This document shows positions 4,556 to 28,900 of a stretch of DNA of 40,000 nt, piece after piece. Positions within the stretch are counted from its first letter, which is position 1, and every line of letters begins with the position of its first letter. Position numbers and translations under genes: made by a program. The notes beneath the pieces are model-generated. The model was not told the DNA's origin and searched no databases. It saw nothing but the letters and a program-made list of their open reading frames with translations. The stretch covers positions 1 through 40,000 of the forward strand of contig CALSCQ010001423.1 of NCBI GenBank assembly GCA_943704525.1, given 5' to 3'. The DNA comes from Pigoraptor vietnamica. Taxonomy: Eukaryota; Opisthokonta; Filasterea.

Positions 4556-7500
4556 ATGGCTGCAGGATCTTCCCGCCGCGCGCTGCTCGTCGCGATCGTC
4601 GCCCTGCTGCTCTCCTCCCTCGCTTTTGCGGAGGGCGCGTCGCGGCGCATCCGCCTCCCCGCGAACCTGCGGGCGACGACCGACCCGTGCAACCTACAGT
4701 GCTGGCTCAACAAGCTCGTCATCCACATCCCGGACCAGACGTTTGACGTTGCGCTCGGCGCCACCGGCAGCATCAAGAACGGCGTGTGCACGGGCATTCT
4801 CATTGGCAATCTCGACTCGAGCCTTGTGGGGCCGAATGGCGCGCCCACGGGCGTCCACTTTGTCGCGTCGGGGCTGAGCATCGCGTGCACGATGGACTGG
4901 GCCATCAGCGGCCTCATTCCCATCTCCGGTAATGCCGCCGCCACGGTCGCAAACTCCGGACTCGACGCGACGCTGCAGCTGCAGCACGACGCGGACGGTC
5001 TGGCGTCGTCGGCGTCGATGCCGTCGTGCAGCGCGAACATTCAGATTGCGAGCCTGACGTTCTCCGGCGACCTGAAGGGCCTGCTCAACGTGTTCAAGGG
5101 CCTGGTGACGTCGATTCTCCAGTCGCAGCTTAAAGGCATCATCTGCGACGAGATGTCCAAGGCCGTCTCGACGCAGCTCACGGGCCTCCTGCAAAAGGTT
5201 GACAACTCGATTCGCCCGTACCTCAAGCCGCAGCCGCCCGCCATGCCGCCCAAGCTGCCGCCGAACATGGTGGACCTCAGCAAGAACTCGCTGATGGGCG
5301 CGATCGACTACGTGCTCGACGAGGTGGTCGGCGTCGACGGCGTGCTCAACGTCAACAAGGTCATGAACCGCCTCACGAAGGACACGGGCAACTTTTCGAT
5401 GAGCAACATTGGATTTGCCAAGTCATTCCCCGTGTCGACGCTCGGCACGATCGGTATTGAGCTCAAGTACGTGAACCTGACGGGCCTCAACACGTGGGGC
5501 GACCTCACTCTCCTCGTGCCGTCCGGCCCGACAAACCTCACGTCGCACACGAGCCTCAAGACGCTCTCGATCGCCGTCGGCTTTGGCATCAACGTGACGG
5601 TGGGCAGCGAGCTCGGCAACGCCTTCCTCCACGAGGACGCGGCCATCTTTATCCGCGTGGACAACAACCGCCTGTCGTCGGACCTGCAGCTGGGCATCAG
5701 CCGCACGCGCCTCGACCAGCTGTCGGACAACCAAATGACGGTCGCGGGCTGCCTCGCCTCGACGCTCGCGGGCCTCAACCTCACCCAGCTCGACTTCTCG
5801 TTTGTGCTCTCACAGCTCGAGATTTTGGCGGCAAACGGCGGCACGGAGGCGCAGCTGGACGGAGCCATCAACAACGTCTTTGCGCTCCTCACGAGCTCGT
5901 TCCAGGTCGCCATTCCCGCGTTCTTCAACGGCGTCGTCGCTGGCCCGGTGCGAGGCCTCGCCAACGCGCAGTTTGAGAAGCTGATAACCGGGCAAGACGA
6001 CTGCTACGAGCCGGCCGAGGTCGAGACGTTCAACCGCAAGTCGACGGCGGCGGCGCTCGGCGGCGCGACTGGCGTGTTTGCGGTTTTCCTTCCGATTGTG
6101 CTGTTTGTGGCAGCTGCGGCGCGTCGCCGGCGTGGCTCGAAGGCGGGCTCTGTGCGCTCCGAGGAGCTGACCGAGCCGCTGATCACGGAGGACGCCCATG
6201 TCTACGGATCGAATGGCGACATTGCGAAGGCGTCTGCCGGGCAGGCGCGCGGCAACAAGTGGCTGACGGCGCTCCTCTTCTGCCCGAAGTACCACCCCGT
6301 GCTCCGCTACGGCATCGTGTTTTTCCTCCTCTGCAACATGGCGCTCTTTATCTCGTCGAACACGTCGGTTGGCGCGTCGGTGTACGTCTACATCACGGTC
6401 GACGGCAGCCAGACGAAGCTTCCCTCGCTCTTCGACTTTACGCTCGCGAACAGCGTCCACGACATGTGGGTCGCGAAGGTCTACGCGCTGTCGCTCCTCA
6501 TCGCCGTGTTCTCCGGGGCGTGGCCGTACCTCAAGCTGCTCATTCTGCTTTTGTGCTGGGTCCTCCCCGTCGGCTGGCTCCCGCGCCGCCGCCGCGAGCA
6601 GTGCCTGATGGCGCTCGACGTCCTCGGCAAGTGGTCGCTGATCGACGCGTTCGTCATGACGCTGATGATGGTGGCCTTCCACTTTGACATTATTCCGCCG
6701 GCGTCCAAGTACGTCGCCCCGGGCTCGGTCGCGATTGAGGCGTACGTCGAGCCGCACTGGGGCATCTACTCGTTTATGATTTCGACGATGATGTCGCTAA
6801 CGGTCACGCACGTGATTCTCGCGTGCCACCGCAAGGAGCTGGTGCGCCCGATGCCCCAGCACGTGCTTGATGTCATCGAGTCGCACGAACGCGAGGCCCT
6901 CCACTCGCACGCCTTCAAGACGAACCGGTTCCTCGCGCGCTGTCCGCGCCTCGTCACGGTGACGGTGACCTCGCTGCTGTCGCTGGCAATTGGGCTCGTC
7001 GTGGCGGGGTCGGTGCTCGACTCGTTCCAGTTTCAGTTCAAGGGCGCGTTCAAGCTGCTCCTCGACTTCCTGCACGAGAACGCGAACCAGGCCTTTTCGA
7101 TCGTGTCGCTCGGCTCGAAGCTGCCCGAGAGCGCGTACGACCCGAACTCGTTTGGCGTGCGGTTTATCCAGGCGACGTGGTTCCTCTTTGCGATTGTGCT
7201 GCCCCTCTGCTACCTCGTCTTCCTCCTCACGCTGTGGCTCGTCCCGATGACGCCGCGCGTCCAGCACAAGATGTTCCACGTGACCGAGGTCTTCAACGCG
7301 TGGTCGGCGCTCGAGGTCGTCGTCGTGTCTGTGATTGCCGCGCTCCTCGAGCTGCGCCAGTTCGCGCAGTTCATCATCGGCGACAAGTGCACCAAGATCA
7401 ACCCGCTCCTCGAACAGTACCTTGGCGACGTCCTCGAGGGCGATGCCAAGTGCTTTGACGTCGTCACGACGCTCGACAGCGGCTGCTGGCTGCTGTTTTG

Positions 7501-7654
7501 CGCGTGCCTCATCTACATTGTCGTCGGGCTTCTCGTGCAGCTCGCATGCCACAAGGCCCTCAAGGAGCGCGAGTCGAAGCTCATGATGGTCGCCGACGAC
7601 GAGGAGCCGCTCGTGCAGGACTCGCTCAACCACGCCGTCGAGGGCGGCCAGTAA
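4556..7654 (+). CDS. TULIP (BPI/LBP-like) ectodomain fused to PqiA-like multi-span membrane domain
   Basis: Single exon, 1032 residues. Residues 1-25 form a signal peptide (Arg-Arg, then a Leu/Ala/Val core), which fixes the start. Residues about 40-490 resemble BPI/LBP lipid-binding proteins: a region with paired Cys, SLTFSGDLKGLLNVFKGLV and a helix like the BPI segment that ends in QPYL (here IRPYL), followed by a second half with several N-glycosylation sequons. A single hydrophobic span lies at about 500-520 and an Arg-rich stop at 521-525. After a cytosolic linker, about 572-715 and 792-995 form two multi-span blocks that resemble bacterial PqiA. The best evidence is the segment CPKYHPVLRYG and LGKWSLIDAFVMTLMMVAF, the latter matching the PqiA GKWSM-DVF pattern. 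The tail DDEEPLV could be an endosomal sorting signal. Bacterial PqiA partners MCE lipid-transfer proteins; a lipid-handling role here is inference. Family assignment is by eye. Confidence 0.82.
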   Translation: MAAGSSRRALLVAIVALLLSSLAFAEGASRRIRLPANLRATTDPCNLQCWLNKLVIHIPDQTFDVALGATGSIKNGVCTGILIGNLDSSLVGPNGAPTGVHFVASGLSIACTMDWAISGLIPISGNAAATVANSGLDATLQLQHDADGLASSASMPSCSANIQIASLTFSGDLKGLLNVFKGLVTSILQSQLKGIICDEMSKAVSTQLTGLLQKVDNSIRPYLKPQPPAMPPKLPPNMVDLSKNSLMGAIDYVLDEVVGVDGVLNVNKVMNRLTKDTGNFSMSNIGFAKSFPVSTLGTIGIELKYVNLTGLNTWGDLTLLVPSGPTNLTSHTSLKTLSIAVGFGINVTVGSELGNAFLHEDAAIFIRVDNNRLSSDLQLGISRTRLDQLSDNQMTVAGCLASTLAGLNLTQLDFSFVLSQLEILAANGGTEAQLDGAINNVFALLTSSFQVAIPAFFNGVVAGPVRGLANAQFEKLITGQDDCYEPAEVETFNRKSTAAALGGATGVFAVFLPIVLFVAAAARRRRGSKAGSVRSEELTEPLITEDAHVYGSNGDIAKASAGQARGNKWLTALLFCPKYHPVLRYGIVFFLLCNMALFISSNTSVGASVYVYITVDGSQTKLPSLFDFTLANSVHDMWVAKVYALSLLIAVFSGAWPYLKLLILLLCWVLPVGWLPRRRREQCLMALDVLGKWSLIDAFVMTLMMVAFHFDIIPPASKYVAPGSVAIEAYVEPHWGIYSFMISTMMSLTVTHVILACHRKELVRPMPQHVLDVIESHEREALHSHAFKTNRFLARCPRLVTVTVTSLLSLAIGLVVAGSVLDSFQFQFKGAFKLLLDFLHENANQAFSIVSLGSKLPESAYDPNSFGVRFIQATWFLFAIVLPLCYLVFLLTLWLVPMTPRVQHKMFHVTEVFNAWSALEVVVVSVIAALLELRQFAQFIIGDKCTKINPLLEQYLGDVLEGDAKCFDVVTTLDSGCWLLFCACLIYIVVGLLVQLACHKALKERESKLMMVADDEEPLVQDSLNHAVEGGQ

Positions 7655-7848: not shown

Positions 7849-10086
7849 ATGGGGATGCTTTCTCTGCCAACAACGCGCGCGGCGACGGTTGTGTCGTGGC
7901 TTGTGGGGATTGGCGACACGTTCACTGCGGGCGAAGTGGTGGGCAACTATCGCGAGCACGGGGCGCACGCAGACGCGGTGCTCACGGCCAAGTGCGATGG
8001 GCGCGTGGCGCGGCTACTCGCGGCGGAGGGAGACTCGGTGGACGCTGGGTGCGTTGGCGTGAAACTTTGTTTGAAGTGTTTCCTTCGGATGCTGACGGCC
8101 CAATTGGCGCAGCGGTGACGTGTTGGAGTACGAGTGCGCCCACGCAATAGTGCTGCACGGACTGTGCGCAGAGTGCGGCATCGACCTCTCAAAGTGAGCT
8201 CACGGAGTGCATGCGTGTCAAGGGCTGTGTGTGTGGGTGCCACGTGCGTGTGTGTCTTGCGTGTCAGTGTGTGCAAGTGTGTCCATGGACTCCATCGGAT
8301 GAAAGGGTTCACGTGCCTTCGTGTTATGCCTGCAGTGAGATTGCGGCCCAGCAGTCGCAGTTTGGCCAGCACGCGCCGCAGCACTTTTCGATGGTGCACG
8401 GGATGCCCGGCCTTGTCGTCGAGAAACACGTGCGTTTCGAACCCACTGGCGACTGCATCGCGTCTGACAATTTGAGCGGTGCCTATCGAGAGGACGCATT
8501 TCTTATCCTTCTGCGCTGCTCTGTCCGCAGGAGGCGCATCGCATTGCCGGCCACGACGAGAAGCGGCTGCGGGAGGCGCGCAAGCTGACGCTGATTGTGG
8601 ATCTCGACCAAACGCTCATCCACGCAACGACGCAGTGCGCGCCGTGGATGATCGACAAGCTGGCTGCGCAGCCCGCGGAGGGGCTCAAGGTGCGTCTCGT
8701 GCCCTGCGTGCTCTACGAGGGACCCGGTGCAACCGCAGTCGCCCTCTCCCTGAGCCCATTCCCCCGTAAGCTTGTTGCTGCTCGCAGTCTGCCGACGCTC
8801 ACGCGCGCATCCCTCCGTAGGACATGGTGTCGTTTGTGCTGCCCGGCAGTCCAATAGTGTACTATGTGAAGGTTCGGCCGCACACTGCCGAATTCCTCGC
8901 TTCGCTCGCGCCGAAGTTCGAGATGCACATATTCACAATGGGCACGCGGCCATACGCGCGCGAGGTGGCCGCCGTGATCGACCCCACCGGCGCGTACTTT
9001 GCGGGGCGCATTCTCTCGCGCGAGGACCTTGGCGGCATATCGGACTCGAAGACGTCGCGGCTGCAGCACCTCTTCCCCACCGGCGACTCGATGGTCGTTA
9101 TTGTGGACGACCGCGCAGACGTGTGGGAGGCGTGCCCGAACCTTGTGAAGATACGGCCGTACGTGTACTTTATGGGCGCCGCGGATGTCAATGCGCTCCC
9201 GAAGGACGCGGCCAAGGCGAAGGGCGACGGAGAAGCGCAGGCACACCCCGCAGTGGCGCCGTCGGACGACGACGACGACCACCTGCTGAGCGTGCGCGAC
9301 TTTGTGGCGCATGTGCACGAGGCCTTTTACGCAGAGGAAGGCGTCGAGACGGTCGCCGACGCGGACCCCGACGCGCGCGACGTGCGCCAGATTGTGCCTG
9401 CGCTCGAGGCGCGCGCGCTCGAGGGCGTGTCAATTGTGTTCAGCGGCGTGATACCCTTGCACGAGACGCGGCCGGAGCGGCACCCGATCTGGCTGCGGGC
9501 GGTGGGCATGGGCGCGACGTGCTCCAATGCGCTGCACGGGGGTGCCACGCACGTCGTCGCCGCAAAGTCAGGAACGGACAAGGTGAACGCGGCCGTGGCA
9601 TGCGGCGGTATGTATATCGTGCACGTCGGATGGCTCACGGCGAGCATAGACCGACACTGCCGCGCGGACGAGCACGCGCACCCGCTCGAGGGCGTTCCTG
9701 TGCTGCCCGCGCGTCGCCTCTTGAGCGACGACAGCGACGAAGACGACGACGAGGAATTTGGCGTTGTTGGTGACGGGGATGAAGGGGATGGCATGGAGAG
9801 TGGCGAAGGTGACGCCGAAGGGGCCTATGAAATGGGCGCGGCGGAGGGTGAGGGCGGAGGCGACAGCAGCTCTGTGTCGGGCGAGGGGGGCGGGGATGCG
9901 GGCCATCCGGGCGCCAACAAGCGCAAGCGGGACGTGGATGACGACATGGGGCCGTCTGACGTCAGCGAGGGCAAGGAGGGGGAAAGGGGCGTCGCGGACG
10001 ACATTGATTTTGGGGGAAGCGACGAAACGTCCGATTCGTCGTCGAGTGATTCCGACGAAGGGGACGACGACGACCTCCTCTCGTAG
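7849..10086 (+). CDS. FCP1: RNA polymerase II CTD phosphatase, FCP1 type (5 exons)
   Basis: Dephosphorylates phosphoserine in the Pol II C-terminal repeat to recycle polymerase. Exons: 7849-8048, 8113-8193, 8336-8429, 8531-8689, 8821-10086, giving 599 residues. Residues 1-75 form the biotinyl/lipoyl-like domain found at the N-terminus of FCP1. Then comes the short Cys motif HGLCAECGIDLS, also present in human CTDP1. The FCP homology domain carries the catalytic motif DLDQTLIHAT (about 149-158; the first Asp is the nucleophile) and the second motif VVIVDDRADVWE. A BRCT domain lies at about 378-472. The C-terminus (about 473-599) is Asp/Glu/Ser-rich with a Lys/Arg patch, like the acidic FCP1 tail that contacts TFIIF. 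The gene converges on GOSR1 across a minisatellite. Identity is secure. Confidence 0.95.
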
Positions 10087-12466: not shown

Positions 12467-14452
12467 ATGACGAAGGCGTCGTACGGCCCGATTGTGCCCA
12501 CGAACGAGCTCACGCCGCAGTTGAGGCGGGAGAGCTCGAGCCTGCACGATGTGGTCATGGCCAGTTCGATCGCCATTCCCGAGGACGAAACGGACAAGCT
12601 TGAGGAGGAGCAGGCGCGTTGTATTGGCGGTGCGCGCTTGTGGCACGTGCACGTCACTCCTGTGCTTACACATGACGCGACGACCACAGATCCGCTTCAG
12701 CCTGCGCAAGCTGTGGGCGTTTGCGGGACCCGGCTTCCTCATGAGCATCGCCTACCTCGACCCCGGCAACATTGACTCGGACCTGCAGGCCGGCGCCGCG
12801 GCGGGGTACCACCTCCTCTGGGTGCTCTTCTGGGCCACCATGCTCGGCTGGATATTGCAGTCGCTCGCCGCCAGGCTCGGTGTCGTGACGGGTGCGTTTC
12901 GCGTTCTTCGCTGAGTTTTGCTGCTGTTTTGTCCCTAGGTTCGGCTGTTCCGTGTTCGTCTGTGCCATTCGTTGTGTCGTTTGTGAGTTCATATTCGCGT
13001 CGTGAAGAATGCATGATACCGCGCACTGTCCCTCGTCTCTCGTCTCACACTCGGCCGCGCGTGTGCAGGTAAGCACCTCGCCGAAGTGTGCCGCGAGTCG
13101 CACCCGCGCGCGCCCCGCATTGCGCTCTGGATCATGACGGAGCTTGCGATTATCGGCAGTGACATACAGGAGGTCATTGGGTCGGCAATTGCAATCAACA
13201 TTCTCTCCGCCGGCAAGGTCCCTCTCTGGGGCGGCGTTCTCATCACGGCGTTTGACACGTTCACGTTCCTCTTTCTCGAGAACTACGGCCTGCGCAAGCT
13301 CGAGGCCGTCTTCGCGGTGCTTATCGCGACCATGGCGGCGACGTTTGGCGCGCAGTATGTGATTGCGTCGCCGAACCAGGCCGACGTCATCCGGGGTGTG
13401 GTCGTGCCGTCGCTTCCGAGTGGCGCCATTACGCAGGCCGTCGGTCTCATTGGCGCGGTGATCATGCCGCACAACATCTACCTCCACTCGGCCCTCGTCC
13501 AGGTGCGTGGATGCGCTGAGTGTGCATTGCGTGTGCCTGTGTGGTGTGTTTGTGTGGCTGTGTGCCTCTTTTTCTTTTGTGTGCACTTGTTGGCTGTATT
13601 CATGTACCCTGCTGACGGGTATGCCGTGCTATGCAGTCGCGGAGCATCGACCGCAAGTCGCCCAAGAAGATCCGCGAGGCCAACTACTACTACCGCATCG
13701 AGACGGCCATTGCGCTGCTCGTCGCGTTCGTCATTAATCTCTTTGTCGTCTGCGTCTTTGCGCACTCGTTCTACGGGCAAGGGTACGACTCGGACGCCTT
13801 CGACATTTCGAGCGCGGGAACGAAGCTTGCGGAAAAGTTTGGCACGTACGCCAAGTACGTGTGGGCGGTCGGCCTGCTTGCGGCGGGGCAGTCGTCGACC
13901 ATGACGGGCACCTACGCCGGCCAGTTTGTGATGCAGGGCTTCCTGGACCTGCGCATCGTCCCGTGGAAGCGCGTCCTCCTCACGCGGTCGGTCGCGATCA
14001 TCCCCGCGATCATTGTGGCGACGGTCACGCAGGACTCGTCGCAGGTGCTCTCGACCATGGGCGAGTGGCTCAACATTCTGCAGAGCGTGCAGCTGCCGTT
14101 TGCGGTCATCCCCGTCCTCGCGGCGACGTCGTCGACGGCGATTATGGGCGCGTTCCGCATTGGGCGCAAGCTGGAGGTCTTCTGCTGGGCGGCGGCGGTG
14201 CTTGTCATCGGGACCAACTTTTATCTAATCGAGAATTTCGCGAGCGAGAATCTTCCGCACGCGCCGTACGTGTACGTGCTGCTCGGCCTGCTCGCGATTG
14301 TGTACGTCGGCTTCATCGGGTACTTGGCGTCGCGCTCTGAGCTCGGCGAGGCCATTCGCGGGCTGCTGTGCCGCGGCAAGGCTGCGAGCGACGACGAGCG
14401 GCGCCCGCTCATTCGCGACGAGAGCGCCGACTCTGTGAACAACGCCAACTGA
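12467..14452 (+). CDS. NRAMP: NRAMP/SLC11 divalent metal ion transporter (4 exons)
   Basis: Proton-coupled import of Fe2+/Mn2+ across a plasma or endolysosomal membrane. Exons: 12467-12613, 12690-12891, 13069-13502, 13637-14452, giving 532 residues, the usual NRAMP length. TM1 holds the metal-binding DPGN (about 73-76) and TM6 the MPHN motif with its metal-selective Met (about 249). [26 protein letters not shown] and [20 protein letters not shown] are hallmark segments. The C-terminal tail has DERRPLI (14394-14414), an ExxxLI acidic dileucine signal. Intron 1 is uncertain: the reading given uses a GC donor (GCGCGT, 12614) and a 76-bp intron. A GT donor at GTGCAC downstream also keeps frame but leaves an intron of only about 43 bp. 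A longer N-terminus from 12287 is possible but unlikely. Confidence 0.95.
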
Positions 14453-25942: not shown

Positions 25943-28900
25943 CTAGAGGGGAAGCAGGTACACGGCACCGCCCACCCGCTCGCGGGAAGGGCTGAACGGC
26001 GCGCCAACGGCCACCGACATTTGTCCGCTGCCATCGAAATCGGCCACCACAAACGAGTACGCAAACCGCGACGACGCCTGGAACGGGCGGAAAGACGCCG
26101 CAGACGCGTCGTCCGGACACGGCCGCGACAGGGTCGTCAGCTCGCAGCGCGTGAGCGTGGGGTTGCCGCCAGCCAGCGCTTCGTACATGTACAGCATGCC
26201 CTCGTCGCGTCCGGAAGCGTCCATGCCCGCGGGATCCTCCGTCCGCTGCGGCGCAGACACAAACAAGGCGTCGCCGGCAGACACGCGGGCGGCCACAAGG
26301 CGCTCTCCGAAACGCGCGCCGATGCGGTCGCCCTGGAGCGTCGCGTACGGCGACAGCGCGGCCGACGTCGTGCCGTTCGTCGAGGCAAGAAGCATCTCGA
26401 GGGGGTAGATGTTGACCTCGCCGGCCTGCACCCACTTGGCGGCCCCAAAAAGGAGCTTGCCGTTGACAGTCTTGCGCGGCGACGACACGGCCACCAGCGT
26501 GCGCCCGTCGGCCGCGAAATCGCCGACAGCGAATGAGCTGCCGTACGTCTCAAACTCCTCGGTGCCCACAACCCACGCCACGCGCTTCGGCACAAACGCC
26601 GCGCCCGCAGCGCATCCGGTGAAGTCGAATATGTGGAGGGCGCCAATGCCCTGCACGTCGCCCTCGTCAAAATCGCAGTCCTCGCGGCGACAGTCGCGCG
26701 CATAAGGCTCGGCAACAAAGAGGTACCGCGAGGCACCGCCCTTCGGCACGACGACCTCGGTGTTGTACCCAAACCAGCCGTACTTCGCAGGGCCCTCAAG
26801 AACAAAATCGGTGGCAGCCGACACGTTCATCGTGGAACCGAGCGACTGGCGGCGCGCGTGGCTCGACGACAGCAGCACCCACACCGCGCCCGACTGCGAG
26901 CGCCCATTGTAGTTGGCGTACGGAGACGACACGATGAGGTCCGCGTGGCCGTCGGCGTCGATGTCGCCCGCGGAGAGGCGCAGGCCAAAGTTTGAAATGT
27001 CCGACAGCACGAGGTCGGGTCCCTCGCCGATAATGGTGAGGTCGGGCTTGTCGAACACGGGCGTTGCATCGCGACGGCCGTAGTAGACGTAGAGCGCACC
27101 GCGATACGAGATCGTCTCGGAGAACGCCGAGGGCGCACCGACGGCAAGGTCATCGATGCCGTCGCCGTTCAGGTCGCACGCGCAGACGCTCTCTCCAAAG
27201 CGCGAAAACGGCATGTCCCCCTCGAGCGACAGCGACGCCGCGACGTCAAGGCTCATCGGTGAGCGCGGCGCGTATCCCGACGGCGACAGAGTCACAATGA
27301 CCGAGCCGACGTGCGTGTCGCCCGGCTGTCCGCTCCCGGGCGCACCGACGGCAAGGTCGGGAACGCCGTCGTCGTTGAAATCGCCGGCCGCGACCCCCGC
27401 GCCCAGCCGCGCGTACGTGCCAAGCGACGGCGCATCGAGCGGCCGCACGGGAACAGACGGGTCGATACCTTCCGCGGGTGCGCGCTTGCTCTTTGCCTCG
27501 CTCCGCAAGAGGTCCGCGAATCCAGCCATGTCGAGCGAGAGGCGCACGCCGCGAAGGTGGGGCTCGACCTTCACCAGCGACGCGAGCTTGTCTGCGAACG
27601 GCTCGGTAATCTTCTGGCGAATTTCGTAGTGGCGCCTTATCTCCTCGGCCTTGGGGAGAGGGCGCGCGCTGGACGGAGGCACGCGCGAGGCGGGCGACTG
27701 CGTGTCGTTGCAGCGCACAAAGAGGGGGTTTGTCGGGAGGTCGCAGCCGTCCGATCCGTGCTCCACAATACGCACGACGGCATCCCATATGTTCGCCGTC
27801 CACTGCGCCATGTCGTCCACGCCGCCGAAAAAGTACGTGTAGAAGTTGTCCGAGAGGAACGGCGAGCGCCAGCCCTCGAAGCCCGCGAGCGTGCCGTCGC
27901 TCGTGTCCTCGTAGGCATTAGAGAGTGCCAGCTTCTCGCCGAAACGGCCGAGGAAGAGGACGGTGGTGCACTTGAGCAGCGTGTAGTCCGTTACGTCGGA
28001 CTTTGCGTCCATCTTGCGATAGATGGGCACGAGGTCCTTCAGCGGAATGTACCTGCAGTTACAAGTGTCAGTTCGGTTACGTCCATTAGAAAGCATGTCG
28101 CCAAAACTTCATCCAATCGCATTCACAGAGCGAGGGAGAGGGTTTCAGGGGAACAGGTGGTACTGCACGTATGACAGAGAGATAGGAGGGGAATACGGGT
28201 TTGGGCACATGGCAGTAAGGAGGGAGGCCAAGCGGTGAGGGACAACGACGCATCGCGGGCGCTCTGCCGCACGCACCAGTGCCCCACAGTCTGGTCGTAG
28301 CCCATTTGCAGGTCAAATTGGACCATCGCGTCGTCAAGGCGGTCGCCGAGCTGCGAATGGCGACCGATATGCGCAAAGTTAGAGAGGGACTGCGATAGCA
28401 AGCACGGACCTGCGCGACCGCGCGTCCACAAAGAGCCCTCAAGCACACGGCACCGCATACGACTCCATAATAGCGAGCGTGTGTGCGAGACGCACCGCCT
28501 GCGCGCGGCCGAGACCGTCGCCGTGGAAGTTAGTGCCGCCCATCGACGTGAGAAGGCCCTGGTCAATGCCCAGCGAGTGCCAATTGATGTCGGCCACCTG
28601 CGGCGCGATGACAGAGGCAAGAGGCCACTTGAGAGACTCGCGGACGCCGCACAGCGAACATGCAAAAGTACACACGCACGCATTCGTCTGCAAACCGCGC
28701 AGACGCTGACATGCGCTCGAACGCACCTGGTGCGACACGAGGCCCAGCAGGAACACGACGAGCTTCTCCGTCGCCTCGTCCCAAGGGCGCGGGTATGTCT
28801 CGTGGATGTACTCGGCTGCGGCGCGCATGAACGGCGTCCAATGCGTGCTCTCGGCGTCTGCGCCGTTGGCACCGCACGGCGCGAACATGGCATCAGGGAA

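Follow-up and report, generated by a model that had tools for sequence, protein, structure and literature searches.

In bacteria, the movement of lipids by PqiA and LetA is poorly understood, and the partner that feeds lipids to these membrane proteins is a separate tunnel protein. In bacterial MCE proteins such as LetB and PqiB, reach or capacity would be set by the number of rings. In the lysosome, the lumenal lipid-binding protein NPC2 hands its lipid over to the polytopic membrane protein NPC1; for the protein described here this system is a working analogy only, the folds being unrelated and NPC2/NPC1 consisting of two chains. Excerpts of PMC10897342 characterize PqiA as a member of a putative transport system, with a predicted unique fold and homology only to LetA, and place the bacterial MCE protein PqiB on the periplasmic side. 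According to passages of PMC13067283, LetAB and PqiB are among the routes by which phospholipids have been proposed to reach the outer membrane, and the mechanisms are called controversial. PqiA does not appear in the excerpts of PMC6791001, which is devoted to bacterial TULIPs. As stated in an excerpt of PMC8163842, the 28 gene groups that indicate phagotrophy include one annotated lipid-binding serum glycoprotein.

We analysed a window, i.e. the whole stretch of 40,000 nucleotides from contig CALSCQ010001423.1 of Pigoraptor vietnamica, which encodes a protein with TULIP domains and a PqiA-like membrane module in one chain. This architecture is not new; it is mentioned briefly in a 2017 review, the authors of which we take to be Wong and Levine. 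In the relevant passages of that review (PMC5507252), a C-terminal PqiA domain is ascribed to a small number of CETP/BPI proteins from protists and amoebae; this corresponds to the architecture of the window protein. These passages already propose that one lipid is handled by both parts and locate the proteins in the plasma membrane; a linker motif, a Lys/Asp shift, a loss of zinc ribbons and a variable TULIP number are not mentioned in them. CETP/BPI proteins are described there as mostly secreted, whereas the window protein differs from mammalian LBP, BPI and CETP in its attachment to a membrane module that resembles a transporter. The original prediction knew of no characterised example of this combination, and among the matches listed in open-licence PubMed Central no experimental study of it was found, the architecture itself being on record in the passages of PMC5507252. 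As far as searched, neither the motif in the linker nor the shift of the Lys/Asp block has appeared in print; the zinc-ribbon loss, the TULIP number of one to three, and the lack of an MCE match in the genome are, within the same search, also new. The motif, the shift and the zinc-ribbon loss were not part of the original prediction. Compared to E. coli LetA (YebS) and PqiA, the window protein is devoid of zinc ribbons, carries the Lys/Asp block first instead of second, has a TULIP partner in cis instead of an MCE partner in trans, and possesses an additional span and a signal peptide.

Coding frame and domain architecture

The complete coding frame for 1032 amino acids, deduced from translation, third-position G+C content and full-length relatives, spans positions 4556–7654 of the forward strand, to which all coordinates of this gene refer, and comprises 1032 uninterrupted codons and a stop codon. 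At 0.896, the G+C content of the third codon position exceeds that of the remaining two (0.603 and 0.412), and a EukProt protein (P0002) aligns over 99% of the window protein with 70% identity; the frame is therefore coding. P0002 is labelled Opistho-2, which we take to be Pigoraptor, a filasterean genus. An in-frame GTG upstream of the ATG at 4556 would extend the open reading frame. In favour of the ATG, a hydrophobic stretch that resembles a signal peptide comes after it, and the N-terminus of P0002 preceding TULIP-N is longer by only 13 residues. An artefact, i.e. two neighbouring genes or a fusion caused by mis-assembly, was rejected on the basis of full-length relatives, transcripts, the intact frame and the G+C content by codon position. 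It is extremely improbable: nothing was found in its support, and the full-length relatives are of varied provenance, with four Trinity transcript ORFs among them. Because these Trinity-labelled ORFs (P0015, P0020, P0022 and P0025) cover 94–98% of the chain, TULIP and PqiA parts belong to one transcript in the species concerned, and the single gene postulated by the original prediction is supported over two separate ones.

Along the chain, a signal peptide precedes two TULIP domains of the BPI/LBP/CETP type; these are followed by a single span, a linker in the cytosol, and a pair of PqiA blocks with four helices each. Hydropathy assigns residues 1–27 (positions 4556–4636) to the signal peptide region with a hydrophobic core at 9–27. 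Hydropathy and loop charges locate the single span at residues 504–522 (6065–6121), after which RRRR stands on the cytosolic face; in both hydropathy and the structural model two blocks of four spans come next. Five N-glycosylation sequons are found in the ectodomain and a sixth at the membrane edge (residue 602), and the presumed cytosolic loops contain none. Since the lysine plus arginine content of the loops and the sequons agree, the ectodomain is predicted to be outside or lumenal, and each PqiA block to begin and end in the cytosol. The order of signal peptide, ectodomain, span, linker and two multi-span blocks, which had been proposed from the letters alone, is thus in accordance with hydropathy, loop charges and sequons.

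The ectodomain matches the Pfam profile LBP_BPI_CETP (PF01273) with E = 1.8e-8, above the curated cut-off, and its model has a TULIP fold, in agreement with the BPI/LBP-like ectodomain of the original prediction. The closest solved folds are LBP and BPI, and Foldseek alignments to BPI/LBP/CETP span about 480–510 columns. From these alignments and the beta/alpha pattern of the model, TULIP-N was assigned to residues 45–226 (4688–5233) and TULIP-C to residues 240–486 (5273–6013). The presence of two domains is supported by model and Foldseek, more weakly for TULIP-C, which was assessed within the whole ectodomain. Their relative placement is poorly modelled (rmsd of 21–22 across both BPI domains). 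Cys158 and Cys197 of TULIP-N occupy aligned positions at which the BPI N-domain also has cysteines, Cys399 and Cys483 of TULIP-C are conserved, and the ectodomain Cys pair is present in 31 of the 32 rows of the family alignment.

For the C-terminal half, the Pfam PqiA match (PF04403) has E = 3e-14 and a score of 53.6 bits, compared to a curated cut-off of 23.8, and consists of two stretches that correspond to two tandem blocks. The model of the membrane module has the LetA fold; E. coli LetA was the sole Foldseek match under 0.001. The expected PqiA-like half matches PqiA by profile and LetA by fold. Profile score (27.7 bits), column counts and fold place block 1 at residues 577–766 (6284–6853), which include N602, P657/K660 and K692-W-S-L-I-D697. 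By the same kinds of evidence (38.9 bits), block 2 comprises residues 790–1004 (6923–7567); it is without the Lys and contains the conserved Cys945 and Cys966 in a predicted lumenal loop. Both of these cysteines (window positions 7388–7453, forward strand) occur in all 30 sequences that cover them and possibly form a disulfide of the TULIP-PqiA family module.

The TULIP-PqiA family and its membrane module

A full-length search yielded 31 relatives, which together with the window protein make up a family alignment of 32 members. One of the relatives (52%) is ACA1_252520 from Acanthamoeba castellanii. PqiA was matched in all 32 members and LBP_BPI_CETP in 13 at E 0.01 (Pfam); for members without the latter match, the TULIP assignment comes from family profiles. 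A profile of the PqiA module, scored only against 7998 candidates sharing most words, gave 67 matches, 64 of them new, and thus 95 relatives in all. Five of these bear the name of a eukaryote (Acanthamoeba castellanii, Balamuthia mandrillaris, Thecamonas trahens, Arcella intermedia and Cymbomonas tetramitiformis), twelve more are supplied by EukProt, and none bears a bacterial organism name. Because the other 78 carry no organism label, we infer that the whole family is eukaryotic from the likeness among its members.

To determine the TULIP number, family profiles of the two TULIP domains, N and C, were run against 96 proteins, of which 17 were tabulated. Among these 17 it ranges from one to three. 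Twelve contain both domains, two (P0027 and P0031) only TULIP-N, and two (P0030 and P0032, the latter being cut after block 1) an extra C-like stretch in addition to both; neither profile matched P0072, which is an incomplete protein. In the single-TULIP proteins P0027 and P0031, which were examined as predicted proteins and not as DNA, the TULIP is followed by a span and a full PqiA module. Several matches of about 500 amino acids begin just before the module. They were not accepted as PqiA without TULIP; they are short-contig predictions from which upstream exons are possibly missing.

For comparison with bacteria, 150 genomes from the phylum of a Franconibacter locus, presumably Pseudomonadota, were sampled; PqiA was present in 84. 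The 30 best-scoring loci, which are not a random choice, were taken, each having two blocks. These are fused in 15 loci and encoded by separate neighbouring genes in the other 15. The block profiles do not include nine genomes in which PqiA was matched just once and more weakly. With E. coli LetA and PqiA added, 32 of each bacterial block were compared with the full modules of 61 of the 96 proteins. In the column of LetA K328, Lys occurs in 32/32 bacterial second blocks and 61/61 family first blocks, as against 5/32 bacterial first and 0/61 family second blocks. The column of D367 contains Asp in 32/32 bacterial second and 61/61 family first blocks, but in only 3/32 bacterial first and 26/61 family second blocks (Glu in 34). 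Asn in the column of N281 is found in 31/32 bacterial second, 56/61 family first, 20/32 bacterial first and 0/61 family second blocks. In the column of K178, 32/32 bacterial first blocks carry Lys, as opposed to Glu (53) or Gln (8) in the second blocks of the family. At least two CxxC motifs precede 58 of 60 bacterial blocks, whereas neither block is preceded by two or more in any of the 61 family modules; a single CxxC before block 1 was found in one of these, some of which are short upstream, and the window protein contains no CxxC anywhere. As judged from aligned columns, the Lys and Asp that are invariant in the sampled bacterial second blocks thus stand in the first block of the TULIP-PqiA family, which has retained the conserved polar set in the other block and dropped the zinc ribbons.

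A clean block swap is not supported by profile scores. Both family blocks (E1, E2) match bacterial block 2 (B2) best, with global hhalign scores of 58.6 for E1-B2, 46.7 for E1-B1, 65.3 for E2-B2, and 38.5 for E2-B1. The best tree groups E1 with E2 (98/97), and a grouping of E1 with B2 or with B1 was not rejected (p = 0.208 and 0.24); note that 64 of 186 blocks were used, that the bootstrap had not settled, and that letA_1 forms a very long branch. The shift may have come about by a swap, by reciprocal loss or by a separate duplication. A recent gene transfer from bacteria was rejected on the basis of the one phylum sampled, in which the family module profile matched 299 genomes at best distantly (best 40.8 bits; E up to 0.01 in 136), and of a pattern scan of genome contigs, in which none of 15 pattern matches was confirmed.

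Within the genome of the window, PqiA was matched only twice, once per block of the window protein, and the sole LBP_BPI_CETP match lies inside the TULIP-PqiA gene. The MCE domain (PF02470), which was matched in 4 of 14 control genomes, had no match; a split domain could be missed, and the assembly may be incomplete. Since exons were searched apart, these three negative results are not proof of absence.

Linker motif and proposed function

The linker was defined as the region from the single span to the PqiA module and was usable in 59 of the 96 proteins. Linkers were excluded if span or module start was not usable or if their length was outside 15–130 residues, as were those of P0049, P0060 and P0079, in which a segment other than the span had been picked; some of the 59 span picks, e.g. 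that of P0025, may be wrong. Of the 59 linkers, 29 contain the textbook pattern of canonical acidic dileucine motifs, [DE]xxxL[LI] (mean of the shuffles 2.5, maximum 8). A looser pattern, acid...PL[LIVM], which was picked after the linkers had been seen, occurs in 27 (mean 0.9, maximum 5). Either class is present in 42 linkers and neither in 17, compared to a mean of 3.3 and a maximum of 9 in 1000 shuffles, which do not remove the relatedness among linker sequences; in a less redundant set the motif count is 35 of 52 (mean 3.0, maximum 8). The median distance from the span is 21 residues. The window protein contains a variant of the motif, EELTEPLI (residues 536–543, positions 6161–6184), with acids at -5 and -6 and not at the canonical -4, so that only the looser form is present. 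Its L542 is almost invariant in the 32-member alignment. Acidic dileucine-type motifs are normally read by endolysosomal adaptors and lead to endolysosomal sorting. Their frequency in the linkers relative to the shuffles suggests a location in endolysosomes or phagosomes rather than in the plasma membrane.

By sequence as well as by fold, each half is a member of a lipid-handling family, and it is reasonable to assume that the two may act on the same lipid. We tentatively propose, with a probability of about 0.42, a single-chain lipid transfer and transport protein of endolysosomes or phagosomes, in which the TULIP pair replaces MCE and the lipid is handed to the PqiA module. The TULIP domains would reside in the lumen of these compartments, or outside the cell en route there, and would pick up single lipids, e.g. 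from digested prey bacteria. A short tether would hold them beside the eight-helix module of the LetA/PqiA type, which lies in the same membrane and would accept the lipid and insert or move it into the membrane. The TULIP pair would thus take the place of the bacterial MCE tunnel partner on the same side of the membrane; the non-cytosolic position of the TULIPs deduced from topology matches the periplasmic side of PqiB given in the excerpts of PMC10897342. Further support comes from the presence of PqiA in all 32 family members, the varying TULIP number, the missing MCE match in the genome, the linker motif and perhaps the lipid-binding serum glycoprotein annotated among the indicators of phagotrophy. 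Against it stand the non-canonical motif of the window protein, the 17 of 59 linkers without motif, and the plasma membrane named in the passages of PMC5507252. With the zinc ribbons missing and Lys/Asp in the other block, the bacterial mechanism may not carry over. We infer the lipid cargo, the compartment, the hand-over between the halves, its direction, and the lifestyle of the organism, which is probably a free-living protist.

The wording of PMC5507252, as far as excerpted, together with the signal-peptide-like stretch and the ectodomain, would fit a protein of the same architecture that hands over lipids at the plasma membrane and scavenges them from the environment. This location is unlikely, given linker motifs far above shuffles. 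Transport could also proceed in the opposite direction, with the PqiA module loading the TULIPs with membrane lipids for the lumen, for prey or for the surface, and bacterial routes are unsettled according to the passages of PMC13067283. Such an export is quite improbable, as the TULIPs would be tethered to the donor membrane and a second membrane as target is not obvious. Finally, the likeness of the ectodomain to the solved LBP and BPI folds would agree with an antibacterial or LPS-sensing function as in BPI/LBP, the PqiA module being mostly an anchor. We consider this to be rather improbable too, because an anchor would not need eight helices; moreover, Lys and Asp are kept in predicted membrane helices in 61/61 sequences, and block 1 contains 23 of the 24 invariant columns of the 32-member alignment, in which incomplete rows depress the count elsewhere.

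One might imagine that bacteria-eating eukaryotes took over a bacterial PqiA-type module and swapped the MCE tunnel for TULIPs, which would have created a one-chain endolysosomal lipid importer. The TULIP number would then set reach or capacity, and the working Lys/Asp centre would have changed its place from block 2 to block 1, perhaps via a separate duplication. We regard this course of events as doubtful. A natural single-chain version with a different, fused lipid carrier would help to separate what is essential, the Lys/Asp bundle, from what is replaceable, the MCE tunnel and the zinc ribbons. The TULIP-PqiA chain is a ready construct for reconstitution and suggests a lipid-salvage route in phagotrophic protists.

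Neighbouring genes

A Pfam scan of eight frames from the window gave a match in three. The frame at 8824–10086 (forward strand) is FCP1-like, with an NLI-interacting-factor-like phosphatase (4.8e-18) and a twin BRCT (4.7e-5). An exon-like frame at 13631–14452 (forward strand) matches the Nramp metal transporter family (1.6e-45). The 717-residue frame at 25943–28096 on the reverse strand contains FG-GAP repeats (PF01839, 9.2e-37, three stretches) of an integrin-alpha-like type. By eye only, the beginning of what may be a gene for a biotinyl/lipoyl domain, interrupted by a short GT...AG intron, was noted at 7849–8195 (forward strand).
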